Notes under the pieces: generated by a model
Seen by the model: the letters and a program-made list of their open reading frames with translations, nothing else
Database searches by the model: none
What the model was told of the DNA's origin: nothing
Assembly (NCBI GenBank): GCA_012520195.1
Contig: JAAYOS010000079.1
Span: 1-39,187 of the forward strand
Direction: 5' to 3'
Origin: Clostridiales bacterium
GTDB taxonomy: Bacteria > Bacillota > Clostridia > Oscillospirales > JAAYOS01
Length of the DNA: 39,187 nucleotides
Shown here: positions 1 to 35,783 of the stretch, in pieces
Layout of the letters: each line of letters begins with the position of its first letter
How positions within the stretch are numbered: the stretch's first letter is position 1
Made by a program: the position numbers and the translations under genes

Positions 1-272
1 CCGCCGGCAACAGCATCAGCACCAAAATCACATAGAGGTATAAATAGAGCGTCGACCTTTGCTGAACTGAACTTTTCTGTAATATCAGGTACCACCCCTG
101 GATCTGACGCTATCCCGTTTTCGCAAAGGTCATCGATATCAACAACCCGCAAAATATCTAGGTTTAGAGATGATATCACTCCCATCAATTTGTCCTTTTG
201 ACCCTTTGCAGCCTCCATAGATAGAAATGCGCGCTTTATCGGTGCTATACCGATGGTAATGGTTCTTTCCAT
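1..272 (-). CDS. L-fucose/L-arabinose isomerase-like protein, N-terminal part (truncated by window edge)
   Basis: Reverse-strand reading from CAT at 270-272 gives MERTITIGIAPIKRAFLSMEAAKGQKDKLMGVISSLNLDILRVVDIDDLCENGIASDPGVVPDITEKFSSAKVDALFIPLCDFGADAVAG, open to the window edge; resembles the N-terminus of the FucI/AraA-like isomerase family; same strand as the kinase gene. Confidence 0.65.
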   Translation of the reverse strand, partial: MERTITIGIAPIKRAFLSMEAAKGQKDKLMGVISSLNLDILRVVDIDDLCENGIASDPGVVPDITEKFSSAKVDALFIPLCDFGADAVAG

Positions 273-286
273 AATCAGCCTTCCTC

Positions 287-1753
287 TCAGTAAAGATCTT
301 TAACTCGATGGTACAGCCCCGTAAACATCTGAAACCGATCATTATACAGCTCGATAAACTCAGTCCTAGGTTTTGACTCCTCTGCAGGTGAAAGGGCGGT
401 TCCAGCCTGGCTGAGGCTTTCATAGACACCTGCACCGACAGCAGCTGCAAGGGCGACCCCTCGTGAAGTCACACCACTGGGTATAGTTGTAACCGACCAT
501 GTACGGACATTGAATATATCGGCCATCATCTGTCGCCAAAGCTGTGAACTTCCGCCACCACCAATGATGCGTATATCCTTGATAATCCTTGTCTCACGAT
601 AGACATCCAGAATACTTCTGAGAGCAAGCGTCACTCCTTCAAGCGTCGCCCTCAGGAAGTGAGCTCTACTGTGCTCCGTTCCGATGTAGAAGTAGACTCC
701 CCGGGCTTTTGTGTCAAAAATAGGTGAACGCTCGCCTTCCAAGTAAGGTAGGAAGACTAATCCGTCTGAGCCTTCAGGCGCTTTGGCCGCAATTCGGTTA
801 AACTCATTGACATCACTTACCCCAAATAGGCTGCTTGCCCACTCAATGCACTTCCCTGCTGTCTGTGTTGTACCGTATACTCCTACACCTTCACCGTCCA
901 AAGCTGGGAGGTTAAAGAGCCTCGCTGCGCCGTCAAAGACAGGAGTTGGCGAGTTGTAGCTCAGCCAAGCAGTCGTTCCCAGCGAACAGTACATCTCACC
1001 GGCTGCGATTCCGGCACCCGCATTTGCACACGCTCCGTCCCCTCCACCTGTTATGACTGGGATTCCGGCCTTGAGTCCGAGCAAAGCCGCAGCCTCTCTG
1101 TTAAGCTTTCCCGCTATCTCTGTACCGCGTCTAAAGACAGTTATTTTCCCCGGATCTATAACTAGCTCAATAAATACGTCTACAAGGGGTTGCTTTGTAT
1201 TAATATCCATCAAATGTGCGTGTGCGCCGTCTGAGTAGTCACCGGTATCGATATTGCCGGTAAGTTTTGATGTTATGTAGTCTTTTGATTGTAAGAACTT
1301 TGCTGTTTTTTCATATACATCAGGCTCATTAGCCTTGATCCAGAGTATTTTGGCAAGTGAACTCTGAGCATTAAGTATATTTCCTGTTCGGCTATATATC
1401 TCGTCTCTCCCTATTGAATCAGCAATTATCACTTCCTCGTATGTAGAGCGTGAATCCGAATGCAGCATTGCAGGTCGAAGAGGCTCTCCGTTTGCGTCTA
1501 CAGGAAGACATCCAAGCATGTGACCGCCAGTACCGATAGCCTCAACTTTTACTGCATACTCTGGATTGCGTTCAAACAGCTTCTTTGTTGTAATACAAAC
1601 CCCTTCCCACCAGGAGTAAGGATTTTGCTCGGTATGTAAGCACTCTGCGTCATGCGGATAATCAAAATTGGCGAATGAAACAATATCCCCCAGCTCATTG
1701 ACCAGTGTCGATTTTACCGAGCTAGTACCCACGTCATAAGCTAGAAATAACAT
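287..1753 (-). CDS. FGGY-family carbohydrate kinase (xylulokinase-like)
   Basis: ORF 488 aa; N-term LAYDVGTSSVKSTLV phosphate-binding motif, GTGGHMLGCLPVD, ITGGGDGACANAGAG, C-term IRIIGGGGSSQLWRQMMADIF typical of FGGY kinases. Confidence 0.9.
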   Translation of the reverse strand: MLFLAYDVGTSSVKSTLVNELGDIVSFANFDYPHDAECLHTEQNPYSWWEGVCITTKKLFERNPEYAVKVEAIGTGGHMLGCLPVDANGEPLRPAMLHSDSRSTYEEVIIADSIGRDEIYSRTGNILNAQSSLAKILWIKANEPDVYEKTAKFLQSKDYITSKLTGNIDTGDYSDGAHAHLMDINTKQPLVDVFIELVIDPGKITVFRRGTEIAGKLNREAAALLGLKAGIPVITGGGDGACANAGAGIAAGEMYCSLGTTAWLSYNSPTPVFDGAARLFNLPALDGEGVGVYGTTQTAGKCIEWASSLFGVSDVNEFNRIAAKAPEGSDGLVFLPYLEGERSPIFDTKARGVYFYIGTEHSRAHFLRATLEGVTLALRSILDVYRETRIIKDIRIIGGGGSSQLWRQMMADIFNVRTWSVTTIPSGVTSRGVALAAAVGAGVYESLSQAGTALSPAEESKPRTEFIELYNDRFQMFTGLYHRVKDLY

Positions 1754-1806
1754 TTCCCCCTCCTTTATCCCCTATAAACTCCCAATAACCCTAATACCCC
1801 TTCAGG

Positions 1807-2736
1807 TCAGTTATCGTACACTTTGGCCCCGTGTGATTTTAGCAGCCTGTACCACTCTTCTTTTTGACCGGGTTTTGGTGGCTCATACTCCTCTTGAACG
1901 CTAAGCCCCATGCGGGTGCTCTTTGAGGCTGCAAGTCTGTGGTATGGCAGCAGCTCGACTCCGAGCAGGTTCGGCATTTCCTTCGTCAGATCGGCTATCC
2001 CTTCGAAGTGGTCATCCCGGTCGTTTAGCCCCGGAATTATCGGACAGCGAAGTAGTATTGAAGCACCAGTCTGATATAGCTTTCGCAGATTTTCCATCGG
2101 AAGATCCATGCTGACGTTGGTAAAAACCTTGTGGAGTTCAGGGTCGGTCTCCTTAATATCGAACAAAAACAAATCGACATGCTTTATTAGTGACTCAAAG
2201 ACCTTAAACGGGGCATAACCGCTCGTCTCTATTGCAACATTGATCCCTTCCTCTTTCGCCGCCATGGCTAGTGCCAATGTGAACTCTGGTTGCATAAGAG
2301 GCTCGCCTCCGGAGAGAGTCATCCCTCCTCCGCTTGGACCGTAATATTTTCTGTCGCTCAGAACATCGTTTATGACTTCTCTGACTGTAACGTCACGCCC
2401 CACAAAGCTTAGCGCACCTGCTGGGCAAACCTCCAGACAGAGACCTCTGAGAGAACACCTAGAATGATCGACCACATGCTTTCCCTCGACTATTGCGTGC
2501 ACATTGCATACTGCCGTACAGGCACCACACCCGATGCATTTGTTCTCGCTGTACGAGAGATGGACCTGGCTCGATATTCCCTCGGGATTATGGCACCATA
2601 AGCAGCGCAGGGGGCAACCCTTAAGAAACACTGTCGTACGTATGCCCGGACCGTCATGCACGCAAAAGAACTGGATGTCGAATATCCTGCCGGTCACATC
2701 AAGGGGGATTTTCCTGACCTCTTTTTGCTTATTCAT
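1807..2736 (-). CDS. Glycyl-radical enzyme activating protein (radical SAM, PflA-like, with ferredoxin insert)
   Basis: ORF 309 aa; radical SAM CxxxCxxC (KGCPLRCLWCHNPEG), two 4Fe-4S clusters (CIGCGACTAVC; CSLRGLCLEVCP), GGMTLSGGEPLMQ motif; next to a glycyl radical enzyme gene. Confidence 0.95.
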   Translation of the reverse strand: MNKQKEVRKIPLDVTGRIFDIQFFCVHDGPGIRTTVFLKGCPLRCLWCHNPEGISSQVHLSYSENKCIGCGACTAVCNVHAIVEGKHVVDHSRCSLRGLCLEVCPAGALSFVGRDVTVREVINDVLSDRKYYGPSGGGMTLSGGEPLMQPEFTLALAMAAKEEGINVAIETSGYAPFKVFESLIKHVDLFLFDIKETDPELHKVFTNVSMDLPMENLRKLYQTGASILLRCPIIPGLNDRDDHFEGIADLTKEMPNLLGVELLPYHRLAASKSTRMGLSVQEEYEPPKPGQKEEWYRLLKSHGAKVYDN

Positions 2737-2759
2737 ATTCTAAACTCCCAACCGGCTCG

Positions 2760-3818
2760 TCAATCCCAGGTCAATATAACCTTTAGTACTTCGCGCCTTT
2801 CAAGCATTTTGATCGCCTCGGCACACTGCTCGACCGGCATGACAGCATCGTAGAAATCGCTTGCCTTCAACGTTCCGTCGAGCATCATTTTCACGATAGT
2901 ATCGTGTGTGCGGTGTTCGCGGTAGGGGTAGCTCATGATATGGACGCAAACATTATTGGGCAGATCGTAGAGGTCCAAAGTACTCTTGCCTTCGGGGAGC
3001 ACCCCGTAAACACAGACCTTGCCACCGGGCTTTAGAAACCTGGCACCGCGCAGAATTACATCGGTACTGCCCACAGCATCGATAACCATATCGAACTTGT
3101 GATCTTTTAGGAGTTCCTCCGGATTCTCATTGTGCGAGTTTATAAGTACATCGGGTGAGGAGACCTCTTTTATACGCTGCAGACGGTTGTTATGGTGTCC
3201 AATCACCACAACAGAGTTTACATTGTATGACCTGAGCTGCAGTGATAGTCCCATCGACACCACACCGTCACCAAAGATGAGGATATCCATGCCTTCCTTT
3301 ACACCAAAATTGTGAAGTGCACTGTAGTTTTCCTTAAAGGTCAGCATCATTGCCGCATCGACAAAGGAGATTTTATTCGGGAACACCTTTGTTAGATAGT
3401 CAATTTCTTCAAACCTTGTGAACATACCGCCACCGCTTACGCCGTCCTCTTTCATTGCCCTGATGTCTGTTGCGGTCAAATACTCCGCCATCTGGCCATA
3501 ACTGCTAGTGTATTTACTTCCGCCGTTGCGCATCATTGCAGGAAGTGGACTGACTACCCGGTCGCCTACTTTTAGATATCTGACCTTATCACCTAACTCC
3601 ACAATCTCTCCGACAGCCTCGTGCCCCAAAATTGTGGGGTACTTGAACTTGAAGAAATCTGATTCAGGATGCTCGTGATGAACGATTTTTAGATCGGTAC
3701 TACTGCAAATGCCGCATGCCCGGACTCTTACAAGCGCCTGATATTCTCCTATATCCGGCATTGGAACGTCTGTTACCATCTCCACTATGTTTGGTTCTAT
3801 AACTGCAACAGCTCTCAT
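2760..3818 (-). CDS. Zinc-type alcohol dehydrogenase-like (MDR superfamily) oxidoreductase
   Basis: ORF 352 aa; ACGICSSTDLK, GHEAVGEIVELGDKV, KVGDRVVSPLP motifs; no four-Cys structural zinc lobe after GDRV. Confidence 0.9.
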   Translation of the reverse strand: MRAVAVIEPNIVEMVTDVPMPDIGEYQALVRVRACGICSSTDLKIVHHEHPESDFFKFKYPTILGHEAVGEIVELGDKVRYLKVGDRVVSPLPAMMRNGGSKYTSSYGQMAEYLTATDIRAMKEDGVSGGGMFTRFEEIDYLTKVFPNKISFVDAAMMLTFKENYSALHNFGVKEGMDILIFGDGVVSMGLSLQLRSYNVNSVVVIGHHNNRLQRIKEVSSPDVLINSHNENPEELLKDHKFDMVIDAVGSTDVILRGARFLKPGGKVCVYGVLPEGKSTLDLYDLPNNVCVHIMSYPYREHRTHDTIVKMMLDGTLKASDFYDAVMPVEQCAEAIKMLERREVLKVILTWD

Positions 3819-3845
3819 GAGTATCCTCCATACATTTATATTCTT

Positions 3846-6260
3846 TTATGCAGTCGAGTAGGCAGTGCGCGATATGATTTCATCCTGCATTTTATCGTCA
3901 AGATAGATGAAATACTCACAGAATCCTGCTATCCGCACTACCAGATTCCGATAGGCGTATGGATTCTTCTTTGCCTCTATGAGCTCCTCAGGCTTGACAA
4001 AGTTGATCTGTATCTGGGGTCCTCCTCGCTCAAGGTATGTCATAAGCAGGCTTTTTAGCGCCGCTACTCCACCCTTGGTGCTGAATAGAGAAGCGGTAAC
4101 TTTTAGGTTTGTCGCTAGTGCTCCATTCAGATACTTATAGTCCAATTTCAGTAGACTGTTTAGCAGATGGGTCGGACCATGCGTATCATGCCCCTGAACA
4201 GGACCCAAACCATCACTTATCGGCTGGCCCTTTTTGCGTCCATCAAGTGTTGCTCCGGTTACCTCGCCCAGGCTCGTCGCCTGAGTGTAGCTAAAGAAAC
4301 TGTTTACATACTTCTCTTGGAGTGTCCCATCATTTAGGTCGTTAACTGCATATGTAAACGTGTTGAACATTTGGGCAGCAAGGTCATCCACCCACTCAAT
4401 GTCATTGCCGTAGTGGGGTATACTCTCTTTGATATATCGACGCAGGGGCTCCTGTCCCTCGTAATCGGCTCGAACGATGTCTATCAGTTGATCCAAGCAA
4501 TATCTACCCGAATCAAAAACAAGGGTTTTTATCGTTGCAAGAGAATCCGCAGTATTCGCCAGTCCTGAGCCTGTCAAAGGAATATGTCCCGGAATTGCTG
4601 CCCCGCCCTGGAACATATCCTTACCCTTTTCAAGGCAGCCGTCGATCCATACTGAACCAAACGCGTCATACCCGCGCGTATGCATAAAACGGTAGTCGGC
4701 CGAAACCTTTCGTTGACCTACCGCAATTCTGATTCGCTCGAGCATGAGCTCAATCAATTCATCAAAAGATTCTATGCGGACCTTTCCTGCTCTATACTCA
4801 TCGAGAATTTCATCCAGTAGCTGGGAGTAGGATATGAAGCCGTTAGGCACAATTAGCCATCCGGCAGAACCGTCCGCAATGAGTGTCTCAACGCATCCCA
4901 TATTGTAGTAGTTGCACGCGTTCTCTGGCGAGTGACCGAGGTCGAGAAAGACCTTCATCCACGCATCGGCGTTGTACAGCTGTGGCATACCAAACCCAAG
5001 CTTAATGGTCTCCATTGCCTCATCCATCACCCACTCGGGCGACTTTGTGGGCGAAACTTGAAGAGAGATGTTAGGATACGGCAGCCTAGTGACCCTGGCT
5101 GCGGCAAGGCACACCTTTGTGAACTCATTTGCCGTACTTTCACCTTTGGCATCTAATCCGCCTAAAGCCATACTCTGTACAGTACGCATCTTGGGCTCGT
5201 TGCATTTCAAATAAAGCATGCAAACAAGATCCCTTGCTTCATCAAAAGTAATTCGGCCAAGTTCGATATCTCTCCTATAGAACGGATACATATACTGATC
5301 AAACTTCGCAAAGCTAAGTGCTGAGCCAAGTCCGGTATTCGCAATCAAATGAGTCAGCCACACCAGTTGTATAGCTTCCCGGAATGTCTCCGGTTTCTCC
5401 GTCGATACCTTGTCGATAATTTCGGCAATTTCGCGCAGTTCCTCGGATCGCACTGGATCTTCCTCAGTCTTTGCTGCGCCTAAGTACGCTTTAGCATATC
5501 TTTTCATGTATCGTATCGCTGCCTCGATAACGATTTTGCAAGCTGTATAGAACTCCTGTTTTTCCGGATCATCCTTTGATTCTTCAAGTAAGTTTTTTAT
5601 CTGCTCAAGTACTGCGGCATATCCCGTATTGATCGCTCTGCCGTAGTTTAGGTTCAAGTGATTAGCAGCCATCCACGGTAAACCGAGTACTCTTTTCATG
5701 ACGTCTTCGCCGTAGTCGAACTGGAATCTGTTTTCCAATACCCTTGCGATTTCATAGCCCTCAATGCGATCGTCATCCTCGTATTTTGACTGAGTCTCCT
5801 TAATCAACTTCTGCAAGGTCAAGTAATCGACATTGGCGTCGTAGTGGTCGCGCGCCATCAGTGCAAAGCGCGATTTCCCCATAGGTGCTGCACCGTACAC
5901 TGAGGTTTCAGCATTGCGGCCGCGCCCATAGAAGTGCACTGGCTCTTGAGCCTCTTCCGGGGGATTTATGTATTCCTCTACGAATTGTTCTGCTTGAATA
6001 AGCAAATCGCTGTACTCGCGGTGAACAGGTTCGACAGGCCACATCCCCAGTATTGAACCTCCCAACAGCTCATGGGGAAACACCTCAAGTTCAACATTGT
6101 CGAGCAGGTATTCCATCGCTCTCGCCCGCCGTATTTGCTTCGGCTGTCCTTCTGTCTCCTTCAACGACTCAGCAATCAGCGGGTAAAAAGTAGTCCTCCT
6201 GACACCCGCATCCATCATGGCTTCAACTTGACGTTTAATTTTATATATACGGTCTTCCAT
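3846..6260 (-). CDS. Glycyl radical enzyme (pyruvate formate-lyase-like superfamily; substrate unassigned)
   Basis: ORF 804 aa; active-site Cys loop NYYNMGCVETLIADGSAGW and C-terminal glycyl radical motif VVRIAGFCEYFIYLDDKMQDEIISRTAYSTA; N-term KETEGQPKQIRRARAMEYLL. Confidence 0.95.
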   Translation of the reverse strand: MEDRIYKIKRQVEAMMDAGVRRTTFYPLIAESLKETEGQPKQIRRARAMEYLLDNVELEVFPHELLGGSILGMWPVEPVHREYSDLLIQAEQFVEEYINPPEEAQEPVHFYGRGRNAETSVYGAAPMGKSRFALMARDHYDANVDYLTLQKLIKETQSKYEDDDRIEGYEIARVLENRFQFDYGEDVMKRVLGLPWMAANHLNLNYGRAINTGYAAVLEQIKNLLEESKDDPEKQEFYTACKIVIEAAIRYMKRYAKAYLGAAKTEEDPVRSEELREIAEIIDKVSTEKPETFREAIQLVWLTHLIANTGLGSALSFAKFDQYMYPFYRRDIELGRITFDEARDLVCMLYLKCNEPKMRTVQSMALGGLDAKGESTANEFTKVCLAAARVTRLPYPNISLQVSPTKSPEWVMDEAMETIKLGFGMPQLYNADAWMKVFLDLGHSPENACNYYNMGCVETLIADGSAGWLIVPNGFISYSQLLDEILDEYRAGKVRIESFDELIELMLERIRIAVGQRKVSADYRFMHTRGYDAFGSVWIDGCLEKGKDMFQGGAAIPGHIPLTGSGLANTADSLATIKTLVFDSGRYCLDQLIDIVRADYEGQEPLRRYIKESIPHYGNDIEWVDDLAAQMFNTFTYAVNDLNDGTLQEKYVNSFFSYTQATSLGEVTGATLDGRKKGQPISDGLGPVQGHDTHGPTHLLNSLLKLDYKYLNGALATNLKVTASLFSTKGGVAALKSLLMTYLERGGPQIQINFVKPEELIEAKKNPYAYRNLVVRIAGFCEYFIYLDDKMQDEIISRTAYSTA

Positions 6261-6498
6261 ACCTGGACCCCCTGTCTTTTCGTGTAAATATATCTATCCC
6301 AGGCTAATATCTATTCTTGTAAATAAAGTCTATACTGTGCTTGTGCACAATTCAATGTCAGAATATCTAATGAAATGTATCATAATGACAGATATATTAA
6401 GCGTAGACTCGATGCAAAAACTCAATGTGTTAACTAAAGTGCGTTACTCAAACATGTAGCTCAATATGCTACTTAGATGCTCGACCACAATGTTGAGA

Positions 6499-6546
6499 TA
6501 AAAAAAGTGCAACCACCAGAACTGTGATTGCAGATCTTGGCTGCAC
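6499..6546 (-). terminator. Rho-independent terminator downstream of spoIVA
   Basis: Minus strand reads GTGCAGCCA...TGGTTGCAC then TTTTTTT; 9-bp stem followed by a T run, just past the spoIVA stop. Confidence 0.75.
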
Positions 6547-6583
6547 CATATAGTAAAAAGAACATAGCAGACATGTGCTGCTA

Positions 6584-8062
6584 TTAAAGTATTATGCAGA
6601 TAAGCCCGCCGCTGCCCTCATTGATGATACGCTGAAGGGTCTCTCTCAGCTTGGAGCGGGCATCCTCCGGCATTCTTTTGAGCTTGCTGTGAAGCCCTTC
6701 GCTGACAAGATCGTTTAAGGACTTGCCGAATATGTTCGACTGCCATATCTCTGCAGGATTCTCCTCAAACTCACTGAGAAGATACTTAATGAGGTCTTCA
6801 GACTGTTTTTCACTGCCCACAATGGGGGAGACCTCTGTCTTTATGTCTGCACGCAGCATATGCACAGATGGGGCAGACGCCTTCAGCCTCACGCCATACC
6901 GGCCACCATGCCTGACAATCTCAGGCTCCTCAAGGGTCAACTCATCCGAAGTCGGCATCACAATGCCATACCCCTCTCGCCGCACCTCCTCGAGCGCCTT
7001 TTCCACCTTGTCATATTCCCTCTTAACAACCGAAAGCCTGCACAAGAGGCTCATCAGGTCACCGTCATCCGACACAGAGAATCCTGTCTGCTCAGCAAGA
7101 GTTCTATAGAAGAGCTCTCGAGGTAGCTCCACAGAAGCAACAGCAATACCGGCACCCATATCGATGCCCCCTACCTTGACACCCATTATCGTGTCGCAGG
7201 AACGCATTGCCTCAATGGCACTACTAACATCGCGGACGCGCCTCATGCCCTTTGCGCCCTTAAGCATCGCCTCGTATAGTTCTTTCTTGATGGGGTGCGT
7301 CTCACTGAGTGCTTCCACCCATGGTGGAAGGAATAGGCCAAGCTCTCTTATCGGGAACTCCATCAGTACTCCCCGGATTATCCTCTCGACGTCCTCCTCC
7401 TCAATGACGAGGCAGTTTGCCGTCATACATGTCACATCGTATTTCTCTCTTATCTCGGCGGCTGCTGCCTGGGCACGGGGTGAATCGGGGTACGCTGAGT
7501 TTACAAGGACAAGAAAGGGCTTACCCAGTTCCTTCAGCTCATTTATCACTCTCCCCTCAGGTACAATATAGTCCTCCCTAGGAATATCGGTGATAGATCC
7601 GTCGGTAGTAACCACGATACCTATCGTCGAATGCTCTTCGATGACCTTGCGGGTGCCGATTTCAGCGGCCTCCATCAGAGGGATCTCATAGTCGAGCCAC
7701 GGCGTCCGGACCATCCGCGGAAGTTCGTCCTCGAACTGCCCTATGGCCCCGTCGACCATATATCCCACACAGTCGATGAGCCGTACCTGCAGGTTCTCTC
7801 CGCCCGCAAAGGTGATATCTACAGCCTCCTCCGGAACAAACTTCGGCTCGGCTGTCATGATGGTCCTTCCTGAACCACTCTGGGGCAGTTCATCCTGAGC
7901 ACGCTGACGCACATATGCGTTTTCAATACGCGGAATTACCATCGTCTCCATAAATCGCTTGATAAACGTCGATTTTCCGGTGCGCACCGGTCCTACAACG
8001 CCGATGTATATGTCGCCGTCCGTCCGCTGCGCTATATCCTCATAAATTGTGCGGTTCTCCAC
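6584..8062 (-). CDS. spoIVA: Stage IV sporulation protein A (coat morphogenetic ATPase)
   Basis: ORF 492 aa; IYEDIAQRTDGDIYIGVVGPVRTGKSTFIKRFMETMVIP, Walker A GPVRTGKST, QDELPQSGSGRTIMTAEPKFVP, highly characteristic of SpoIVA. Confidence 0.97.
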   Translation of the reverse strand: MENRTIYEDIAQRTDGDIYIGVVGPVRTGKSTFIKRFMETMVIPRIENAYVRQRAQDELPQSGSGRTIMTAEPKFVPEEAVDITFAGGENLQVRLIDCVGYMVDGAIGQFEDELPRMVRTPWLDYEIPLMEAAEIGTRKVIEEHSTIGIVVTTDGSITDIPREDYIVPEGRVINELKELGKPFLVLVNSAYPDSPRAQAAAAEIREKYDVTCMTANCLVIEEEDVERIIRGVLMEFPIRELGLFLPPWVEALSETHPIKKELYEAMLKGAKGMRRVRDVSSAIEAMRSCDTIMGVKVGGIDMGAGIAVASVELPRELFYRTLAEQTGFSVSDDGDLMSLLCRLSVVKREYDKVEKALEEVRREGYGIVMPTSDELTLEEPEIVRHGGRYGVRLKASAPSVHMLRADIKTEVSPIVGSEKQSEDLIKYLLSEFEENPAEIWQSNIFGKSLNDLVSEGLHSKLKRMPEDARSKLRETLQRIINEGSGGLICIIL

Positions 8063-8074: not shown

Positions 8075-9607
8075 TTATCTTCTTTTCGGAATCAGCAGCA
8101 GCTCATCCGGATTTGGTTCATCCCCGGGTTCAAGGTCATTTGCAGCTCTGATATCAGCTTCAGCAGAATTATATCTCTTTGCCATCGACCACAAGCTCTC
8201 GCCCCTTTGAGGGTACTTAAGTACAACACTTGGACGCAGCGGAGCATCCTCACCGTACGGCTCCAGCCTGGCCGAATGCACTGCGAAGATATTTCTCCTT
8301 CGCGTTGCCTCCAAGTCAAAGCAGGCATCGAACCGAACCTCCGCCCCACTTATCGCCGCAGCACTGAAGGCCTCCGAAGCTGACGCTACTCTCACCCTAC
8401 AGCCGGACCCATCGGGCGCTTCGCTCCTTACCGAAACAGGCAGTCTGCGTGACGCGTGATATATGCCGCCATCCTCCGCCACATACAAAATTCGTACATC
8501 CGCAGTGGTCTCGGCACGTATGAAGCCCTGTTCCCTTGAAACTGTGGGCTCTTCAAACAGCACCTCCATGTCGAGAACATACCTGACAGGAGTGTCGGTC
8601 TCTACAGTATCACGTATCGTCTGCCTCTTTGTCTCCAAATCAACAAGCTCGGTAAACTCGTATGGGCGGGAATCCACCACGCTCCTCATCGACGTGCTGT
8701 AAAGGTCGGCTATCGTCTCAAGCCTTTTGGGGGCATACGCACTGAGCTGCGCCTCGATATCGGCACTTACAGAAAGTATCCTTCCTCCCGACTCCCCGTT
8801 CAGCTCTACCGAGACGTTCTCCGGCTGCAGCCATATGAAGCATTGCGCACCCTCCGTAAGTCCGTCTGCTTCAATGATCTGAGAAAAAGGCAACTCGATT
8901 TGTGATGTAAAAACGTCGTTACCGGGACCCCTCCCCTTACACAGGAGCTTTATCGAGAGCGTTGCCTTAAATATCACTTTTCTCCCCACAATGTTGTACT
9001 CTCCGGAAGTTGTCTTGCAGCTCCACTTAAGTATTTCAGCGGCCGGGGGATTGGAGGATGACATCTCAAGCTCATCAGATATTGCAAAAGATTTTGTCTT
9101 AGCCGCGCAGGGCATCCGCACAAGGTAGCTCTGCTTGAGAAGCTGCACGTCTTCACGGCCGACTGCGTTTACGTCTGTACATAGGGAGAAGCTCCTCTGA
9201 TCAATGGATCGGGCATCGATCCGTACGGTTGTACGCACGAGAACTTTTCTCGGATTTATCGTCCGGCTGTCGATCGACTGCAATTCGACGCTGCAGAGTA
9301 GAACCCCTCTGCTCTCCGGGTTCATCTCGAATTCGTGCGTAAACGGAATTGAAAGCGTAAGATGCTCAAGCCCCTCCCCGCTTTCGGGGACATAGATTAC
9401 ACTTGCCCGTACCGTGCCCGTCACTATGAGTCGGCTCTCCCTCATCTCCCTTGTGTTGATCATCGCTACACCATGACTTTCAACAATCCTTAATATGTCG
9501 GGCAGTGCATCCGGCACAATCGCATCATACATCTCTTCGCGGGTGCCCGTCATATCCAATCCGGTATCATAAAAAACATAGCTTTCTTTTCTAAGCTCCA
9601 ACTCCAT
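8075..9607 (-). CDS. sipL: SipL-like spore morphogenesis protein (DUF3794/SPOCS repeats plus C-terminal LysM)
   Basis: ORF 510 aa; repeated SPOCS/DUF3794-like segments and C-terminal LysM-like VLKYPQRGESLWSMAKRYNSAEADIRAANDLEPGDEPNPDELLLIPKRR; directly upstream of spoIVA with a 12-nt gap. Confidence 0.8.
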   Translation of the reverse strand: MELELRKESYVFYDTGLDMTGTREEMYDAIVPDALPDILRIVESHGVAMINTREMRESRLIVTGTVRASVIYVPESGEGLEHLTLSIPFTHEFEMNPESRGVLLCSVELQSIDSRTINPRKVLVRTTVRIDARSIDQRSFSLCTDVNAVGREDVQLLKQSYLVRMPCAAKTKSFAISDELEMSSSNPPAAEILKWSCKTTSGEYNIVGRKVIFKATLSIKLLCKGRGPGNDVFTSQIELPFSQIIEADGLTEGAQCFIWLQPENVSVELNGESGGRILSVSADIEAQLSAYAPKRLETIADLYSTSMRSVVDSRPYEFTELVDLETKRQTIRDTVETDTPVRYVLDMEVLFEEPTVSREQGFIRAETTADVRILYVAEDGGIYHASRRLPVSVRSEAPDGSGCRVRVASASEAFSAAAISGAEVRFDACFDLEATRRRNIFAVHSARLEPYGEDAPLRPSVVLKYPQRGESLWSMAKRYNSAEADIRAANDLEPGDEPNPDELLLIPKRR

Positions 9608-21340: not shown

Positions 21341-24300
21341 ATGGCACTCATAGATATAAACAACCTGGAACTGTTTGCTGAAAATATCTCGGCAAACCTA
21401 TCCTCACCGATGGTTACAACTACTGCAAAAATAGGCCGATTACTGGCGAAAAATTTATCATACCTCAAGCACATATCCGACAAAATCGTGTCATTCAAAC
21501 CGCCAAATGGGAAGATGCCCAAGGAGTTCGAGTGGTTCATAGATAACCGGTATATCGCGGAGCGGGAAGGCCGCAGTGCGATGCTGACTCTGAAAAGAGC
21601 GGGCAAACTTCCGGCATCGCGTAAAGGCTACCCTAAGATATTTGGCCTAGCGGTGGCACTTGTGAGGTCGGGAAACGGCGGAGTAACCGCTGAACGCATC
21701 AGAATATTCCTAACTGGAGCTCAAAAAGCCGGGGCCTTTTCAGAGAAGGAGCTCTGGCTCTTTACTGTAATGTTGAAGGCGGCACTCGTATTCGAGCTTC
21801 AGAAGCTCTCCCGAAACTTTATGCCAATGATGCAGGAGTACGCCGGTAAAAAAAGTGGCATCTATTCCGCCGAACTTGAGATGGATTCGATCCGTTCGGA
21901 GGGCGGAACCCCACTGGCAACAATCGCTGAGGACGCGATGAAAGCCCAAAGTGAGCATTTGGAGATGTCAAATATCGCAGAGAATATATTCACATCTCTC
22001 CGGCTTCTTTCAACAGCTGATCTCCGAGAGATGCTCCACAGTCTCAGCGCGGTGGAGCAGATCCTCTGCAGCGATCCCTCAGGTATTTATCCGGTAATGG
22101 ACGAGGAGAGCCGCGCACAGTGCCGCAGGATTGTAAGCAGGTTGGCAAAGCGGAAACAAATGAGTGAGGCGAGTACTGCCGAAAAGGCAATATCCCTTTC
22201 AAGGGGGGCATCCGACCCGCTGATGCGCCATGTCGGGTACTATCTCCTGCGAAAGCCATTAGGAGAGGACCCAGCGACATGGCACCGCCCACTGTATTTT
22301 GCCATACTTTTTGCTCTTACTATTCTGTTTGCGCTTCTGGTCTTGCCCATCTCGGGCCCGGTAGCCACACTGCTATTACTCATACCTCTTAGCGGAGTCG
22401 CAAAGAACATCTGCGATACCCTTGCACTCAGGTTTCGCCACCCGGCTAGGCTACCCCGCCTTGAGTTGAGAGAAGGTATACCCGATGACTCAAAAACCTT
22501 GTGTGTCATATCAGTTCTGCTAACCGACAAAGAGGCCGGGAAAAGATATGTCTCCCTGCTGGAACACTATATGCTTGCCAATCGCAATGCTGGCAGCAAT
22601 CTTGTTTTCGGACTGCTTGCAGACTTGAAGGAGTCTGATATGCCATTTAACGAAGGGGATGCCGCCACCTTATCCGCCATCAAAGAAGAAATTGCGCGGC
22701 TAAACAGGAAACATGGCTGCAGATTCTTCTTCTTTATAAGAGACAGGGTGTATAACGCCTCTGAAAAGCGCTACATGTCCTGGGAACGCAAAAGGGGCGC
22801 GCTCATTGAACTATCAAGACTGCTCTCAAATAGGCGGTGCGGACTTCGCATTGAGTGCGGTGATCCTGAGGCTATAGGGCAAGTGCGCTATGTTATTACA
22901 CTCGATTCAGATACCCGATTAACTGTCGGCAGTGCTGCTGAGCTTGTCGGTACAATGCTCCACCCTCTCAATCGACCGCTGTATGATTCGGAAAGGCGCA
23001 TTGTGCGCGAAGGGCACGCCATTCTACAGCCAAGAATCTCAGTAGATCTAGAGGCCGCCTCAAAATCGTTTTTCAGCCGCGCAACCGCCGGGCTTGGGGG
23101 TACCGACCCGTACGGCAGTACTGTATCTGATCTGTATCAGGACCTATATGACGAGGGGATCTTTACAGGCAAGGGTATATTCGATCTAGAGATGTTCTCT
23201 CAATGTCTAGATAACCGCTTTCCGGAGAACAGAATTCTGTCGCACGACCTGTTAGAGGGCTGCTACCTTCGTGCAGGTCTGCTAAGTGACGTAGAACTTA
23301 CAGACGGCTTCCCGTACAAAGTAAGTTCATACTTTTCAAGGCTTCACAGATGGATCCGGGGTGACTGGCAGCTACTGCCCTGGCTGTTCAAAAAGGTCCC
23401 AGCCGAAAATGGGAAGATGGAAGAAAACCCGCTGAGCCCACTTTCAAGGTGGAAAATCTTCGATAACTTGCGCAGAAGCTTAGTCCCCGTGTTAACCTTT
23501 GCTGCAATACTGTGGGGAATATTATTCGACGGCTTATGGGCGGCCGCAGGTGTAGCTGTTGCAATCTCACTCTCCGAGCTCGCCCTGTCGGCAGCAGCAG
23601 CGCTGCTTCGCGGCGGATACGAACTAGGTAGCCGTTACCACTCTTCAATCATGTACGGTGTTCGCGGAAGCACAGTTCAGACAGTGCTCAGCATTATGCT
23701 CCTGCCTTACCGTGCTTTGGTTAGCCTGCATGCTATTATCACAGCACTTTACCGTATGTTCATCTCAAAGAGAAACCTTCTCCAATGGGTTACAGCTGAA
23801 CAGTCAGAAAAAATAGCTTCCGACAGCATCCTTGGCATCTACTACAAGATGGCATTACCCGTAGTATTTGGTGCAATAAGTATATTTGTATCAGATAAGA
23901 TTATTGCGGATATTCTCGGTTCGCTATGGGTCATATCTCCTCTGGTAAGTGCGCTAATAAGTAGGCCCACAAAAAAGAAAAAAGCAATATCAGAGCAGGA
24001 CGAGGCTTTTCTCAGGCGGCAGTCCGCATTGATGTGGGAGTACTTCGAGCATTTCCTGACGCCGGCAAACAACTTCCTCCCTCCAGACAACTGGCAGGAG
24101 CAGCCTGCAGTGGGCGTTGCCCGGAGAACTTCCCCTACAAACATCGGCCTTGCTCTTCTCTGCTGTCTCGCAGCACATGACCTAAACTTGGCAGGACTAA
24201 ATCATATCCTCGATAAAATCGAGCAGATGCTGAACAGTATCGATAAACTAAGGAAATGGCGCGGTCATCTTCTCAACTGGTACGACACATCAACACTGGA

Positions 24301-27300
24301 ACCTCTCTATCCAATGAATGTGTCATCGGTTGATAGCGGTAACCTTGCCGGTTGCTATATTGCACTAATCAGTGGACTGAATTGCCTTGGAACACCGCGC
24401 GCAGCTAATCTCGCTGAACGCATCAAAGCTATGCTTGACGAGATGGATTTTCTAGCAGTGTTTGATAAGGACAGAAACCTTTTCTATATAAGTGTAGATA
24501 TCGAAACAGAAAAACACTCTGAAAGCTGGTACGATCTCCTCGCCAGCGAGGCAAGACAGACAAGCTATATCGCCATAGCACGGGGATTAATAGATAAGAA
24601 GCACTGGCGAAGACTTGGCAGAGCGCTTGTCCAGAAGAATGGTTATTCGGGAATGGCATCGTGGACAGGCACGATGTTCGAATACCTCATGCCCAATCTC
24701 CTCATGCCAACCTATCCAAACTCTCTAATCTACGAGAGCCTCCGTTTCTGTGTCTACTGTCAAAAACTCAGAGGCGCCGCCTTCAAAATACCCTGGGGCA
24801 TCTCGGAAAGCGCATTTTTCGCGTTCGACCGTCAACTGAACTATCAGTACAAGGCCCATGGTGTCCAGCGGCTTGCCTTCAAACGTGGCATGAATCGCGA
24901 ACTAGTAATATCGCCTTACTCCACGTATCTTGCCCTTGAAGTTGAGCCCGCAGCATCAATCAAGAACCTGCGGCGGCTTGAAATGCTCGGCCTTGAAGGC
25001 CGATATGGACTATACGAGGCGGCCGATTTCACACCTACCCGGCAGGTCAGCGGGCACTTGTTCGAGCCTGTGATGTGCTTTATGGCACACCACATCGGTA
25101 TGAGCCTCATCGCCTGCGACAATCTCCTAAACGACAATGTTATGCAGAAGCGGTTCATGGCAGACGCGGAAATGGGCGCATTTGCCGAGCTGCTGCAGGA
25201 GCGGACACCTGTTGATGCAGTAACGGTGCGCGCTTCGTACAGCGAGGTGCCCGAAAAGCCCAAGCGGTCCACAGACAGTGAGTGGACCATGTCGCTTGCC
25301 GGCTTTAACACATTCGCCCCGCGCTGCCACCTCATTTCAAACGGGTCGTACTCGCTTCTGCTTACCAACACCGGGCTTTCACGCTCAATGGCCGATGGCA
25401 TTATGCTAACGCGCTTCGACGCCTCCCTTGCAGAAGGTGTCTGTGGCATATACTTCTTTTTGAAATCGGACAATGAAACACGCTCACTGTCGCCTGCACC
25501 TTTCTTTGACAGAGATGTCCAATATTCAGCCCAGTTTGATGAGAAGTCTCACAAGCTCCACGCCGACTTTGATGATATAAAGACATGCATAACTACATGT
25601 ATACCAAACAGAGACAAGTCGGAACTACGAGAGGTCAAGATCCAGGCTTCAACTGACTTTTCGGGGGAGCTTATCTGTTACTTCGAGCCGATACTGACAG
25701 AACATGATACACACCAGGCACATCCGGCCTTTTCTAAGCTCTTCTTGGAGACTAAAGCCACTCACAACGGCGTACTGGTGCGTCGCAGACCGAGAGTAGG
25801 AAGTGACTTCCTATATCTATCCTTCATCTGCTCGGTTGATGGTGCGAGCTTTTCCACTTCACGTGAGAAAGCGCTAGGAAGAGGCGGTTTCGACGAGATT
25901 GGACGGCTTGTAAATAAGCCGCTGCAACTATCGGAGGGCCCTGTTATCGACCCCTGTGTACTGGCAAAAGTGCCTGTAAGTATATTACGTGGAGAAAGTG
26001 CAACGATTCGCTTTTCTCTCTCTTTTGGCGAGAGCTCAGAGAGTGTAACAGCTGCAGCCGAAAGGACTTTGGCCATGCCCTACACTCAGGCATCTGGTCG
26101 CCCCGTCGGTGAGTATCGGAGACTAAAGCTCACGCACAGCGAAGTCAACACAGCTCTCGAGTATGCAAGAGAAGTAATATTCCTATCCCCCGGTAGACGT
26201 GAGCTCGCAAAATATATACTTCAGAGCCAAGGCGTTACGGATACCAACCGTAGTAACGGCACCAACCCTGCTGAGCTTAACCATGCAGATCAGACAGCTT
26301 TGTGGAAGTACGGCATCTCGGGCGATCTACCCATAATTGCAGCTGTCTGTGGAGCAGAAACCCCTCACGATGTAATATCTCGGACTATCAGGCAGCACCG
26401 TCTGCTTATGTTCGGTGGCATAAAATGCGATCTCGTACTGCTCTTTTCAGAAGGGAGTGACTACCGAAGGCCTGCACGCACTGCAGCTCTAGATCTAATA
26501 CGCGCAATCGGCGCCGAAAACACTCTATCCATACCAGGCGGAATCCACTTAATCGACCTTCTCCCCTCAGATGAAGACTTTGCTCTGATCGTGGCTTGCT
26601 CATCTGTACTCATAGACTCTACTGGTGAGGCTTCACTACGAGATAACTCAGCAGTTCACGCTCCCACATCGCCTAAACTGCTTGAGCTAAAGCAAAAATC
26701 CAAGGCCAGAATACCAGAGTCCACCAGCGGTAGAAACCTGCAATATCATGCAAACGGCAGTATTTCCTTTGAAGCGGGTGCTAATATGCTAGCCTCAGCA
26801 TGGTCAAATGTCATGTCCAACGGCGAAATAGGTTACATCGCTACCGACACTGGTAGTGGATATATGTGGCGCCTAAACGCAAGAGAAAACAGAATCAATG
26901 CTTGGACTAACGACACACTCGCAATCGAGGGCGACGAACGTATCTATCTCCAACTAAACTCAGGTACCGTTTCCGTCTTTGCCTCCGACGACTCGTTCCC
27001 GTGTACTGTAACGTACGGACCTGGGTATGCTGTCTGGGAGAAAAATATCGAGACCGGCACTATAACCACAACTGCTTTCGTCCACAAGGACCTACCCTGC
27101 CGTATGATAAAAATAACGTACAGTGGAGACGAAGATGCACGTCTAATATATTTCTCAGGACTTGTCATGGGCGACACCCCATCGCTTCGTAGGCATGTCA
27201 TTACTTTTGAGGACAACGGTAGCATACGGGCGACCAACCGCTATCACTCCACTTTCAAGGACCAGATGGTGTTGTTTTCATCAAACCCCGCATATGACAA

Positions 27301-28996
27301 GTTCACCTGTGACAGGACCGAAGCGTTATCGGGATCTCTCAAAGGCATCTGCGGTGCGGGGCTTGACCCCTGTGTGTGCTTTAGCGTACCGATGGAGGAA
27401 AAGAGCGTCGTCCTTCTGTGCGCTGCAGACAAAAATGATACCGATATGTCCGAATGCCTAGAACTCTTGGATTCCGACAAGTTCGACAGAGCTCTTCAGG
27501 AAACTGTGCAGTACTGGACGGTTGCGGTGACACCTGTAAAAATCAACACACCATCGCATGAGCTCAACAGATATATCAACGGGTGGGCTCTCTATCAAAC
27601 AATCGCATGCCGCATGCTCGCCCGCTCATCAATGTATCAGTCAGGCGGTGCATACGGGTTCCGTGACCAGCTGCAGGATTCGTGTGCTGCCCTAATATCA
27701 AATCCGGAAATTACGAAAGCTCAGATTCTTAGAGCTGCCGCCCACCAGTTTACCGAAGGTGATGTCCAGCACTGGTGGCACGCATCATACACTGAGGGCG
27801 AGGCCGGCAAGGGCGTCCGGACACGCTGCTCGGATGATCTGCTGTGGCTGCCATACACGGTGTATGAATATGTAGATAAAACCGGTGATCACGATATACT
27901 AGACATCCAGGTACCATTCCTCGTATCGGAGCCTTTGAAACCCGGCGAACATGAGAGATACTCGCCCGCATCGGTATCGGAGGAAACAGCTGATATCTAT
28001 AATCACTGTATACGTGCAATAGAGATGGCAATATCACGAGGTGTAGGCGACCATGGACTTGCGCTAATAGGCACTGGAGACTGGAACGACGGCTTCAACA
28101 TGGTAGGTGCTGAAGGTCGTGGCGAAAGTGTTTGGCTATCATGGTTTCTTTCAATCGTTCTCAGGCGATTCTCAAAGATTTGTATCAGTCGTGGAGATGA
28201 GGCACGAGCCACTCAATTCAACAATTACGCCGATGCGCTTGTAAAAGCTGCAGAAAATGCCTGGGACGGTAAATGGTACAGACGCGGATATTTCGACAGT
28301 GGTGCTCCATTAGGTTCGCACGAATCGGAAGAGTGCAAAATCGATTCGATAGCCCAGAGTTTCGCTGTACTCGCCGGAGCTGATAAGAAGCGATGCAAAA
28401 CGGCTCTCCAAAGTGCAGCAGAGCACCTCGTGGACCACGAAGTTGGCATAGCCATGCTGTTTAAGCCACCATTCCGCGACAGCAGCGAAAATCCCGGATA
28501 CATCATGGGGTATCTGGAAGGTGTCAGGGAAAACGGCGGGCAGTACACGCATGCGGCAATCTGGCTTGCCATGGCCTTCCTCGAGTACGGTCTGAACAAC
28601 GAAGGATTTGATATCCTGAACATGATCCTGCCCGCAACACACGATGAAAAAATCTATCGGGTTGAGCCCTATGTGCTTGCAGCAGATGTCTACTCAAATG
28701 AGCACCACAGAGGTCGCGGCGGATGGAGTTGGTACACAGGTTCATCTGCGTGGTTTTATCGTGTTGCAGTGGAGAACCTGCTCGGAATTGTTATCTCGAG
28801 TAAGGGGCTGCGCCTATCGCCAACAATACCCGACCATTGGGACGGCTACAGTGCTAGCGTCCGCTTTGGCAAGTCCCATTGGGAAATCGAGGTAACTCGC
28901 GATAAAAGACCTTCACTTTATGTGGATGGCATAGCAGTACCCGACCTCTCTGCTTTCGTCCCCCACGGCGTGCACAAAGTCAAATTATCGATATAG
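21341..28996 (+). CDS. Cyclic beta-1,2-glucan synthase-like protein (GT84 + GH94, NdvB/Cgs family), 2551 aa
   Basis: GT part: YVITLDSDTRLTVGSAAELVG, LHRWIRGDWQLLPWLF; multiple TM segments; C-terminal GH94 phosphorylase-like: GGAYGFRDQLQDSCAALI, HQFTEGDVQHWWH, ALIGTGDWNDGFNMVGAEGRGESVWLSWFL. Confidence 0.9.
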   Translation: MALIDINNLELFAENISANLSSPMVTTTAKIGRLLAKNLSYLKHISDKIVSFKPPNGKMPKEFEWFIDNRYIAEREGRSAMLTLKRAGKLPASRKGYPKIFGLAVALVRSGNGGVTAERIRIFLTGAQKAGAFSEKELWLFTVMLKAALVFELQKLSRNFMPMMQEYAGKKSGIYSAELEMDSIRSEGGTPLATIAEDAMKAQSEHLEMSNIAENIFTSLRLLSTADLREMLHSLSAVEQILCSDPSGIYPVMDEESRAQCRRIVSRLAKRKQMSEASTAEKAISLSRGASDPLMRHVGYYLLRKPLGEDPATWHRPLYFAILFALTILFALLVLPISGPVATLLLLIPLSGVAKNICDTLALRFRHPARLPRLELREGIPDDSKTLCVISVLLTDKEAGKRYVSLLEHYMLANRNAGSNLVFGLLADLKESDMPFNEGDAATLSAIKEEIARLNRKHGCRFFFFIRDRVYNASEKRYMSWERKRGALIELSRLLSNRRCGLRIECGDPEAIGQVRYVITLDSDTRLTVGSAAELVGTMLHPLNRPLYDSERRIVREGHAILQPRISVDLEAASKSFFSRATAGLGGTDPYGSTVSDLYQDLYDEGIFTGKGIFDLEMFSQCLDNRFPENRILSHDLLEGCYLRAGLLSDVELTDGFPYKVSSYFSRLHRWIRGDWQLLPWLFKKVPAENGKMEENPLSPLSRWKIFDNLRRSLVPVLTFAAILWGILFDGLWAAAGVAVAISLSELALSAAAALLRGGYELGSRYHSSIMYGVRGSTVQTVLSIMLLPYRALVSLHAIITALYRMFISKRNLLQWVTAEQSEKIASDSILGIYYKMALPVVFGAISIFVSDKIIADILGSLWVISPLVSALISRPTKKKKAISEQDEAFLRRQSALMWEYFEHFLTPANNFLPPDNWQEQPAVGVARRTSPTNIGLALLCCLAAHDLNLAGLNHILDKIEQMLNSIDKLRKWRGHLLNWYDTSTLEPLYPMNVSSVDSGNLAGCYIALISGLNCLGTPRAANLAERIKAMLDEMDFLAVFDKDRNLFYISVDIETEKHSESWYDLLASEARQTSYIAIARGLIDKKHWRRLGRALVQKNGYSGMASWTGTMFEYLMPNLLMPTYPNSLIYESLRFCVYCQKLRGAAFKIPWGISESAFFAFDRQLNYQYKAHGVQRLAFKRGMNRELVISPYSTYLALEVEPAASIKNLRRLEMLGLEGRYGLYEAADFTPTRQVSGHLFEPVMCFMAHHIGMSLIACDNLLNDNVMQKRFMADAEMGAFAELLQERTPVDAVTVRASYSEVPEKPKRSTDSEWTMSLAGFNTFAPRCHLISNGSYSLLLTNTGLSRSMADGIMLTRFDASLAEGVCGIYFFLKSDNETRSLSPAPFFDRDVQYSAQFDEKSHKLHADFDDIKTCITTCIPNRDKSELREVKIQASTDFSGELICYFEPILTEHDTHQAHPAFSKLFLETKATHNGVLVRRRPRVGSDFLYLSFICSVDGASFSTSREKALGRGGFDEIGRLVNKPLQLSEGPVIDPCVLAKVPVSILRGESATIRFSLSFGESSESVTAAAERTLAMPYTQASGRPVGEYRRLKLTHSEVNTALEYAREVIFLSPGRRELAKYILQSQGVTDTNRSNGTNPAELNHADQTALWKYGISGDLPIIAAVCGAETPHDVISRTIRQHRLLMFGGIKCDLVLLFSEGSDYRRPARTAALDLIRAIGAENTLSIPGGIHLIDLLPSDEDFALIVACSSVLIDSTGEASLRDNSAVHAPTSPKLLELKQKSKARIPESTSGRNLQYHANGSISFEAGANMLASAWSNVMSNGEIGYIATDTGSGYMWRLNARENRINAWTNDTLAIEGDERIYLQLNSGTVSVFASDDSFPCTVTYGPGYAVWEKNIETGTITTTAFVHKDLPCRMIKITYSGDEDARLIYFSGLVMGDTPSLRRHVITFEDNGSIRATNRYHSTFKDQMVLFSSNPAYDKFTCDRTEALSGSLKGICGAGLDPCVCFSVPMEEKSVVLLCAADKNDTDMSECLELLDSDKFDRALQETVQYWTVAVTPVKINTPSHELNRYINGWALYQTIACRMLARSSMYQSGGAYGFRDQLQDSCAALISNPEITKAQILRAAAHQFTEGDVQHWWHASYTEGEAGKGVRTRCSDDLLWLPYTVYEYVDKTGDHDILDIQVPFLVSEPLKPGEHERYSPASVSEETADIYNHCIRAIEMAISRGVGDHGLALIGTGDWNDGFNMVGAEGRGESVWLSWFLSIVLRRFSKICISRGDEARATQFNNYADALVKAAENAWDGKWYRRGYFDSGAPLGSHESEECKIDSIAQSFAVLAGADKKRCKTALQSAAEHLVDHEVGIAMLFKPPFRDSSENPGYIMGYLEGVRENGGQYTHAAIWLAMAFLEYGLNNEGFDILNMILPATHDEKIYRVEPYVLAADVYSNEHHRGRGGWSWYTGSSAWFYRVAVENLLGIVISSKGLRLSPTIPDHWDGYSASVRFGKSHWEIEVTRDKRPSLYVDGIAVPDLSAFVPHGVHKVKLSI

Positions 28997-33739: not shown

Positions 33740-34004
33740 ATAAAGGCAGTGAAGAGAAGAGTAGGTAAAGGGATACGGTCAGAGAGCCTCTGGTTGGTGT
33801 GAAGGGGTGCGGAGAACTTTACTGAAGATGGTCTTGGAGCCGCGTACCGACCGCTTTTTATAGCATAGGCTACGACGGGGGCGCCCGTTACAGTGCAGGA
33901 GTATGTTAGTACTCACAGAGGTCTATATCGCGAGGTATAGGCGAAACAAGGTGGTAACACGAAGTTTGATTCGTCCTTGATGTTTTTACATCAGGACGTT
34001 TTTT
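33740..34004 (+). ncRNA. T-box riboswitch (methionine, specifier AUG)
   Basis: Stem-I-like AGAGAGCCTCTGGTTGGTGTGAAGGGG; specifier ATG at 33828-33830 in CTGAAGATGGTC; T-box AAGGTGGTAACACGAAG (33948-33964); terminator CGTCCTTGATGTTTTTACATCAGGACGTTTTTT; located before metNIQ. Confidence 0.9.
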
Positions 34005-34034
34005 GTTGTCTATAGAGCAACTGCATGAAAGGAT

Positions 34035-35051
34035 GTGCCGGGAGTGCCAATTATAGAAATTAAGAACCTTAACAAAACCTTTGTAAAGGGTACCGATTCC
34101 TTTGTCGCCCTCGACAATATCGATCTCTCAATAAAGCGGGGTGAAATTTTCGGCATTATAGGGCTTTCCGGTGCTGGAAAGAGCACGTTGGTGCGATGTA
34201 TGAACCTTCTTGAAAAGCCCACCACTGGTAAGGTGATCGTTGACGGATTGGACATCACGACACTCTCAGAGCGCGAACTTAGGATCGCTCGCCAATCCAT
34301 AGGAATGATATTTCAAGAGTTTAACCTGCTGATGCAGCGCACAGCCCTTGAAAACATCTGCTTTCCACTCGAGCTAGCGGGTATAAGTCGAAGGGAAGCA
34401 AAAATTCGAGCACGAGAGCTGCTGGACATAGTCGGCATCCCAGAGAAGGAAAACTCATACCCCTCTCAACTTTCTGGAGGTCAAAAGCAGCGTGTAGCCA
34501 TTGCTAGAGCACTCGCAAATAACCCAAAGGTCCTTCTCTGCGATGAGGCGACAAGCGCGCTAGATCCTACTACCACACAGTCTATTCTAGATTTAATAAA
34601 GAAGTTGAACCGCGAGTTGGATGTCACAGTTGTAATAATAACGCATGAGATGAAGGTTGTAGAACAGATCTGCAATCGTGTGGCGATAATTGCGGACAGT
34701 AACATTGTGGAGGTAGGGGCTGTTGATGATGTGTTTCTGCACCCCAAAACCAGCGCAGCTAAAAAGCTTATATTCTCCAATAGCGATGCCACAGAGAAGT
34801 TCACAGGCAATGGCAAGTATCTCCGTTTGGTGTTTGACGGCGACTCAACAAATCGTGCGATTGTAGCCGAAATGATCCTCAAAGGCGGTAGTCCTGTAAA
34901 TATCGTCTTTGCAGATACAAAGACCATAGATGGAAAGGTGTATGGACACCTACTGCTTCAGCTACCGGACGATCCGAATGCTGTTGGCAAGATGCTAGAT
35001 TTTCTTGATGCTGAAAACATTACATACAGTGAGGAGGAATACGATGTTTAG
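34035..35051 (+). CDS. metN: Methionine ABC transporter ATP-binding protein with NIL domain
   Basis: IIGLSGAGKSTLVRCMNLLEKPTTG, LSGGQKQRVAIARALANNPKVLLCDEATSALDP, C-term NIL-like domain; downstream of Met T-box. Confidence 0.95.
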   Translation: MPGVPIIEIKNLNKTFVKGTDSFVALDNIDLSIKRGEIFGIIGLSGAGKSTLVRCMNLLEKPTTGKVIVDGLDITTLSERELRIARQSIGMIFQEFNLLMQRTALENICFPLELAGISRREAKIRARELLDIVGIPEKENSYPSQLSGGQKQRVAIARALANNPKVLLCDEATSALDPTTTQSILDLIKKLNRELDVTVVIITHEMKVVEQICNRVAIIADSNIVEVGAVDDVFLHPKTSAAKKLIFSNSDATEKFTGNGKYLRLVFDGDSTNRAIVAEMILKGGSPVNIVFADTKTIDGKVYGHLLLQLPDDPNAVGKMLDFLDAENITYSEEEYDV

Positions 35052-35706: not shown

Positions 35707-35783
35707 ATGATTTATCTATAGTATTCTGATGTAAATAGCATGTTGATATCATTTAGTAACATTTAATTGCAAGGAGAATGATT

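Follow-up and report, generated by a model that had tools for sequence, protein, structure and literature searches.

An uncharacterised branch of glycyl radical enzymes in a putative sugar or polyol operon of a Clostridiales bacterium

Which substrate is consumed by the glycyl radical enzyme (GRE) encoded at the left end of contig JAAYOS010000079.1 of a Clostridiales bacterium (assembly GCA_012520195.1)? The window analysed here is this entire contig (G000:C173, 39,187 nt), which genuinely ends at base 1, and its genome of 2.45 Mb is 96% complete. In GREs, an activase of the radical S-adenosylmethionine (SAM) type makes a glycyl radical, the radical moves to a cysteine and the resulting thiyl radical abstracts a hydrogen from the substrate. 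Several clades of this family, once assigned, revealed an unsuspected anaerobic reaction or nutrient, as was the case for choline, isethionate, hydroxyproline and anhydrohexitols. The minus strand carries five co-directional genes, in the transcription order GRE, medium-chain dehydrogenase/reductase (MDR), radical-SAM activase, FGGY kinase and an isomerase start truncated at the contig end. From the GRE onward, the gaps between them measure 27, 23, 53 and 14 nt, which bears out the gene order and short gaps of the original prediction made from this DNA. We lean slightly towards the answer that the GRE, an oxygen-sensitive enzyme, may be a C-O eliminase that acts on a polyol, cyclitol or anhydro-sugar derived from sugars and has the MDR as its redox partner.

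The enzyme carries the marks of the superfamily, namely the active-site loop Gly455-Cys456-Val457-Glu458 (GCVE, a Cys-x-Glu loop), a C-terminal glycyl loop with RIAGF at 776-780 in RIAGFCEYF, and an adjoining activase that exceeds its family cut-off. Cys456-Val457-Glu458 is the predicted thiyl/base loop and Gly779 the predicted site of the glycyl radical. The activase reaches 323 bits for TIGR02494 (cut-off 174) and, as read from its sequence, keeps the CX3CX2C motif (C40, C44, C47) and ferredoxin-type cysteines, so that the GRE/activase pair looks functional.

To which class the GRE belongs was addressed with a tree of 45 proteins that included PflD and YbiW of E. coli, Klebsiella CutC, Enterococcus HypD, Fusobacteria HpfG, GldA and two microcompartment-associated GREs, with IslA, HpsG, HPAD and IAD compared by score. 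The six longest members of its clade group together with full support (100/100), on a stem whose length is 1.39 substitutions per site, and are joined to no characterised class; the GRE thereby falls outside the GldA/propanediol (PD) dehydratase clade and is not placed among the glycerol/1,2-propanediol dehydratases. Bit scores to clade members range from 681 to 1848, whereas other GREs reach no more than 311. The original prediction had treated the GRE as unassigned and had named clustering inside a characterised clade as the outcome that would overturn it; no such clustering was seen against the seven labelled classes of the tree. Judged from tree and scores, the clade is distinct from PflD, YbiW, CutC, HypD, HpfG, GldA and the PD dehydratases and forms a branch, as yet uncharacterised, within the known GRE family.

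The GRE is also below every NCBIfam equivalog cut-off that it matched, by a wide margin. It obtained 427.8 bits for TIGR01774 (cut-off 678.2), 351 against 1109 for the PflD/YbiW model NF007437 (it lies outside both of these clades too), 324.5 against 1050 for the choline trimethylamine-lyase model TIGR04394 (CutC), 320.9 against 1100 for the hydroxyproline dehydratase model NF043068 (HypD), and 345.9 and 299.3 against 1000 for the sulfopropanediol dehydratase models NF048009 and NF048011 (HpfG and HpsG). Its best match in the PDB was the glycerol dehydratase 1r8w (314 bits), and the solved IslA structures 5ymr and 7kq3, an enzyme compared by score outside the tree, gave a weaker 222 and 208 bits.

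The clade was found in eight genomes, i.e. that of the window and G008 (82%), L003 (75%), L004 (72%), G476 (53%) and G537, G767 and G768 (42-43%). L006, from G008, and L002 were counted as one genome because they have mirrored coordinates and the same length. The scan of genome contigs gave only three relatives. With the window's own genome counted, the clade was found in 2 of 394 genomes of the order, 3 of 391 of the class and 1 of 399 of the phylum, and is thus rare. Its carriers are metagenome-assembled genomes, two of them titled Oscillospiraceae, and most are fragmented assemblies, G537 being a single contig. A very divergent GRE on G476:C55 was placed as sister of the clade (95/90), but because of its long branch this position was not used as evidence. 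In the assembly of the window as a whole, a single PF02901 match was found and a canonical pyruvate formate-lyase was not seen.

Whether the operon continues beyond the contig end was approached through the truncated isomerase, the missing part of which was sought in the same genome with the full-length isomerase of G023 as query. It was found at the end of contig C194 (L078:5462-6608). When base 1 of the window and base 6608 of C194 are joined, they give an unbroken frame of 472 amino acids that matches the G023 isomerase at 54% identity over its length, without a gap at the join, and one or two bases inserted there would break the frame. The contigs share no sequence overlap and it is from this in-frame fit that we infer C194 to continue the left end of the window. 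Since the isomerase fragment on its own has no Pfam match and no credible PDB match, its identity rests on the homologues and on the joined gene. The best NCBIfam match of its C-terminal part was the sulfoquinovose isomerase model NF048012 (SftI), at 107.1 bits against 700, far outside membership.

C194 (L078:1-6608) adds five operon genes after the isomerase on the same strand: a Gfo/Idh/MocA dehydrogenase, a solute-binding lipoprotein of the ATP-binding cassette (ABC) type (assigned by sequence, with no Pfam match), two TIM barrels of the AP_endonuc_2 family that are weakly IolE-like, and a cupin, just under the Ureidogly_lyase and DUF4867 cut-offs, within which the contig ends. The Gfo protein weakly resembles the models for IolG, levoglucosan dehydrogenase and disaccharide 3-dehydrogenase; with 52.7 bits against 650 for NF052479, it is not assigned to the LgdA-type levoglucosan dehydrogenases. 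The sister species G008 keeps the order Gfo, lipoprotein, TIM barrel (Gfo 87%, lipoprotein 75%). The original prediction had suggested looking left of position 1 for transporters, aldolases or aldehyde dehydrogenases, and of these C194 provides the lipoprotein but neither an aldolase nor an acyl-CoA aldehyde dehydrogenase. More widely, no microcompartment gene, acyl-CoA aldehyde dehydrogenase or aldolase was found in the window locus (first 10 kb) or in the next 6.6 kb on C194. Shell proteins, which would mark a GRE microcompartment locus, were absent near the GRE and on C194, the rest of the genome not having been scanned for them. The microcompartment reading was dropped; no stretch seen in the clade has a microcompartment association, and the proposal of a non-compartmentalised route is supported.

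The contexts of the GRE in its relatives indicate what accompanies it. In L003, it stands with a GalM mutarotase, an MDR, a ManA-like isomerase, the activase and an FGGY kinase. In the clade locus of G476, it is found with an MDR, the activase, a GH38 enzyme, ABC permeases and two solute-binding-like lipoproteins. The G537 and G768 loci contain DeoR, activase, GRE, a SorE-like reductase and a PfkB kinase (DeoR and activase were confirmed by family scan in G537 only), and in the G767 region a PfkB gene was looked for nearby and not found. GRE and activase are thus kept in all three lineages. The MDR of the window has a 49%-identical orthologue beside the G476 GRE, and is replaced in G537, G767 and G768 by the SorE-like reductase, which is 43% identical to an annotated SorE and is not its orthologue (25% over part). 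Because a reductase recurs beside the GRE although the reductases are non-orthologous, a required redox partner is suggested, and carbonyl chemistry finds its strongest argument in this recurrence. Every lineage has a sugar or polyol context, with carbohydrate genes that differ by lineage, so that this part of the proposed substrate range stands.

In the pathway that we favour, the sugar would be taken up via the ABC solute-binding lipoprotein. The activase would generate the glycyl radical at Gly779, from where it would pass to Cys456, and the thiyl radical would take a hydrogen from a polyhydroxylated sugar-derived compound. Glu458 and His201 could then assist the loss of a neighbouring C-O bond, as water or as an ether oxygen, to give a deoxy-carbonyl compound. 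His201 aligns with GldA His164 and HypD His160, and Glu458 with HypD Glu436, of which His160 and Glu436 are essential in HypD (PMC7077986). The neighbouring MDR, which is of the sorbitol-dehydrogenase kind, would interconvert carbonyl and alcohol, and an elimination by the GRE followed by the MDR step is a plausible order. The Gfo/Idh/MocA dehydrogenase and the two IolE-like TIM barrels may carry out oxidation and elimination/hydration or epimerisation, and the aldose isomerase and FGGY kinase would supply lower metabolism with a ketose phosphate. In this scheme, the reaction class, the substrate class and the direction of each step are inferred.

The closest precedent for such a substrate is given by PflD and YbiW of E. 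coli, whose substrates are sugar-derived polyols and which open the ring of 1,5-anhydromannitol-6-P or 1,5-anhydroglucitol-6-P (review PMC12441222). The window GRE is like them a member of the GRE eliminase family with a Cys-x-Glu loop and a histidine at the GldA His164 position, and its Ser313 aligns with a serine of PflD. Nevertheless, identity is about 30-32% over the catalytic part, the clades are separate, and the E. coli genes have phosphotransferase system and FsaA neighbours that are missing at the window GRE.

Several points weigh against an eliminase of this kind. At the positions of GldA His281, Ser282 and Asp447, pocket and recognition residues of diol dehydratases, the window GRE has in the alignment Ser/Ala, Ala and no aligned Asp, so that known diol-dehydratase recognition is not to be assumed. 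An AlphaFold2 model of the GRE, built with the four closest sequences, had a mean pLDDT (predicted local distance difference test) of 44.7 and was unusable, for which reason the pocket claims are based on alignment. Decarboxylases, acyltransferases and fumarate-adding enzymes have the GRE fold as well. Finally, the kinase, the isomerase and the Gfo/TIM genes are not common to all GRE-carrying lineages, hence the pathway may vary from one lineage to another.

The simplest rival is a diol dehydratase acting last, as a variant of fucose or rhamnose breakdown. The aldose would be converted by the isomerase to a ketose and the ketose by the FGGY kinase to a ketose-1-phosphate, an off-contig class II aldolase would release dihydroxyacetone phosphate and an aldehyde, and the MDR would reduce the latter to the diol dehydrated by the GRE. 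Fucose/rhamnose GRE microcompartment loci contain isomerase, FGGY kinase, dehydrogenase, GRE and activase, the same enzyme types as here, and the isomerase relatives in G023 and G014 adjoin class II ketose-phosphate aldolases, with a PfkB kinase in G023 as well. The GRE itself shares with GldA/GrpM, the B12-independent glycerol/propanediol dehydratase, the Cys, Glu, Gly and His164 positions in addition to the 1r8w match, but differs from it in clade and in the three recognition residues. Shell protein, CoA-acylating aldehyde dehydrogenase and aldolase are likewise missing from the window locus and the 6.6 kb beyond, and the clade GRE occurs in G476 and G537 in loci that have no FGGY kinase or isomerase over the stretches that were read. 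Clade, pocket residues and the absence of microcompartment genes all speak against this variant, which seems improbable. Fucose/rhamnose GRE loci are treated in PMC3557285 and PMC5311937. A sulfosugar pathway, in which the SftI-like isomerase would work with a GRE acting on dihydroxypropanesulfonate, appears highly improbable. It would fit the best NCBIfam match of the isomerase and the weakly DUF4867-like cupin, this family being found in sulfo-SFT loci, but the SftI, HpfG and HpsG scores are far too low, the GRE is outside the HpfG clade, and no transaldolase, sulfoquinovosidase, sulfonate exporter or other sulfonate gene was seen; the sulfonate branch of the original prediction is thus not supported. 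Moreover, the largest DUF4867 cluster is mostly found beside fucose-type isomerases and FGGY kinases, in non-sulfo aldose/ketose neighbourhoods, and a role as mutarotase or ring-isomerase in ketose metabolism has been speculated for the family (PMC11968277, 2025).

A further alternative, which seems unlikely, assigns the first cleavage to the C194 genes. The Gfo dehydrogenase and the two TIM barrels would split a glycoside or anhydro-sugar through a 3-keto intermediate, the released aldose would go to isomerase and kinase, and GRE and MDR would process the other half, i.e. an aglycone polyol, cyclitol or anhydro-hexitol. The operon content and the weak similarities of Gfo and TIM barrels are in line with it. 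In the levoglucosan pathway (LgdA, LgdB1, LgdB2, LgdC), cleavage of a C-O bond proceeds through oxidation, elimination, hydration and reduction and involves one Gfo-type enzyme together with two of the sugar-isomerase type (PMC7676230). That pathway resembles the operon in its Gfo/Idh/MocA gene, two sugar-isomerase-like genes and ABC transport gene(s), but it has no GRE, and C194 has one Gfo gene in the part seen. In G476, the two best relatives of the Gfo protein (62-64% identity in one comparison, 63-66% in another) stand near two GREs other than that of the clade locus, both very divergent, at distances of 7-11 kb. The first locus (L093:5744-17227, on G476:C55) comprises such a GRE with its activase, a GH38 enzyme sharing 67% identity with that of the clade locus in G476, three TIM barrels and the Gfo dehydrogenase. 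The other (L092:686-9261, on G476:C79) has a GRE, in which a simple pattern did not find the GCxE loop, with its activase, a second Gfo gene that is nearer, two TIM-barrel genes (one just under its Pfam cut-off) and a sulfatase. Gfo candidates number 56 and GREs about 20 (at 23 PF02901 match places) in G476, whose 4.5 Mb assembly has 8% contamination, so that chance alone should bring some of them close together; a rough post hoc estimate puts the chance of both best relatives lying this near a GRE at about 1%, which is suggestive. All these similarities are far under equivalog cut-offs, and in the sequence read near the GREs of G537, G767 and G768 no Gfo/TIM genes were noticed.

Going further, the clade might be a new isofunctional GRE class in which radical C-O cleavage occurs within an oxidoreductive (3-keto) carbohydrate pathway, GRE and MDR opening or dehydrating the non-phosphorylated half after Gfo and TIM barrels have split a glycoside, cyclitol or anhydro-sugar, an idea that we consider rather unlikely. 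If the Gfo/TIM link were true, two carbohydrate-cleaving strategies that have been studied separately would be joined. For the C-O eliminase that we favour, the operon probably represents an as yet undescribed route by which a C-O bond in a sugar-like compound is broken; as the clade is deeply separate and rare, with a defined operon, activase and redox partner, its substrate is directly testable.

Two more GRE loci were observed in passing. On G476:C1 (L079:3863-11197), a further GRE stands beside an SftI-like isomerase, a glycerol-kinase-like FGGY kinase and an apiosidase-like hydrolase. On a Parabacteroides plasmid (L067:3771-13824), GRE and activase are near a ROK kinase, an N-acetylmannosamine-6-phosphate epimerase, a DUF1080 gene and two Gfo/Idh/MocA genes.

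Table 1. Features at the left end of the window.
Feature	Positions	Strand or place	Basis or remark
FucI/SftI-like aldose isomerase, N-terminal 90 codons	1-272	minus	homologues and joined 472-aa open reading frame
FGGY carbohydrate kinase, 488 aa, XylB-like	287-1753	minus	below xylulokinase cut-off
Radical SAM GRE-activating enzyme, 309 aa	1807-2736	minus	over TIGR02494 cut-off
Zinc-type MDR alcohol/polyol dehydrogenase, 352 aa	2760-3818	minus	nearest solved relatives sorbitol dehydrogenases, 73 bits
Glycyl radical enzyme (GRE), 804 aa	3846-6260	minus	profile scores, Cys-x-Glu and glycyl loops, tree
Intergenic leader, spoIVA to GRE	6261-6583	minus	terminator-like hairpins at 6584-6564 and 6532-6508
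spoIVA	6584-8062	upstream of GRE operon	sporulation gene
SipL-like gene	8075-9607	upstream of GRE operon, beside spoIVA	sporulation pair with spoIVA

The coordinates are collected in Table 1. The FGGY kinase obtained 330.4 bits for the xylulokinase model TIGR01312 (XylB), whose cut-off is 380.25, and is not assigned to it. As family assignments, those of GRE, activase and kinase are nevertheless far above chance level. The two terminator-like hairpins between spoIVA and the GRE weakly suggest that the operon may have its own promoter, nine terminator-like sites having been found in 1-6700 against 5.2 expected (a weak excess). Because spoIVA and the SipL-like gene are directly upstream of the operon, the organism is likely a spore former. 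Elsewhere in the window, a 2551-aa protein (21341-28996) with GH94 and glucoamylase-like domains resembles cyclic beta-glucan synthases. Finally, a T-box leader precedes an ABC ATPase with a NIL domain and an NlpA lipoprotein (33740-36608), which probably represent methionine uptake under tRNA control.

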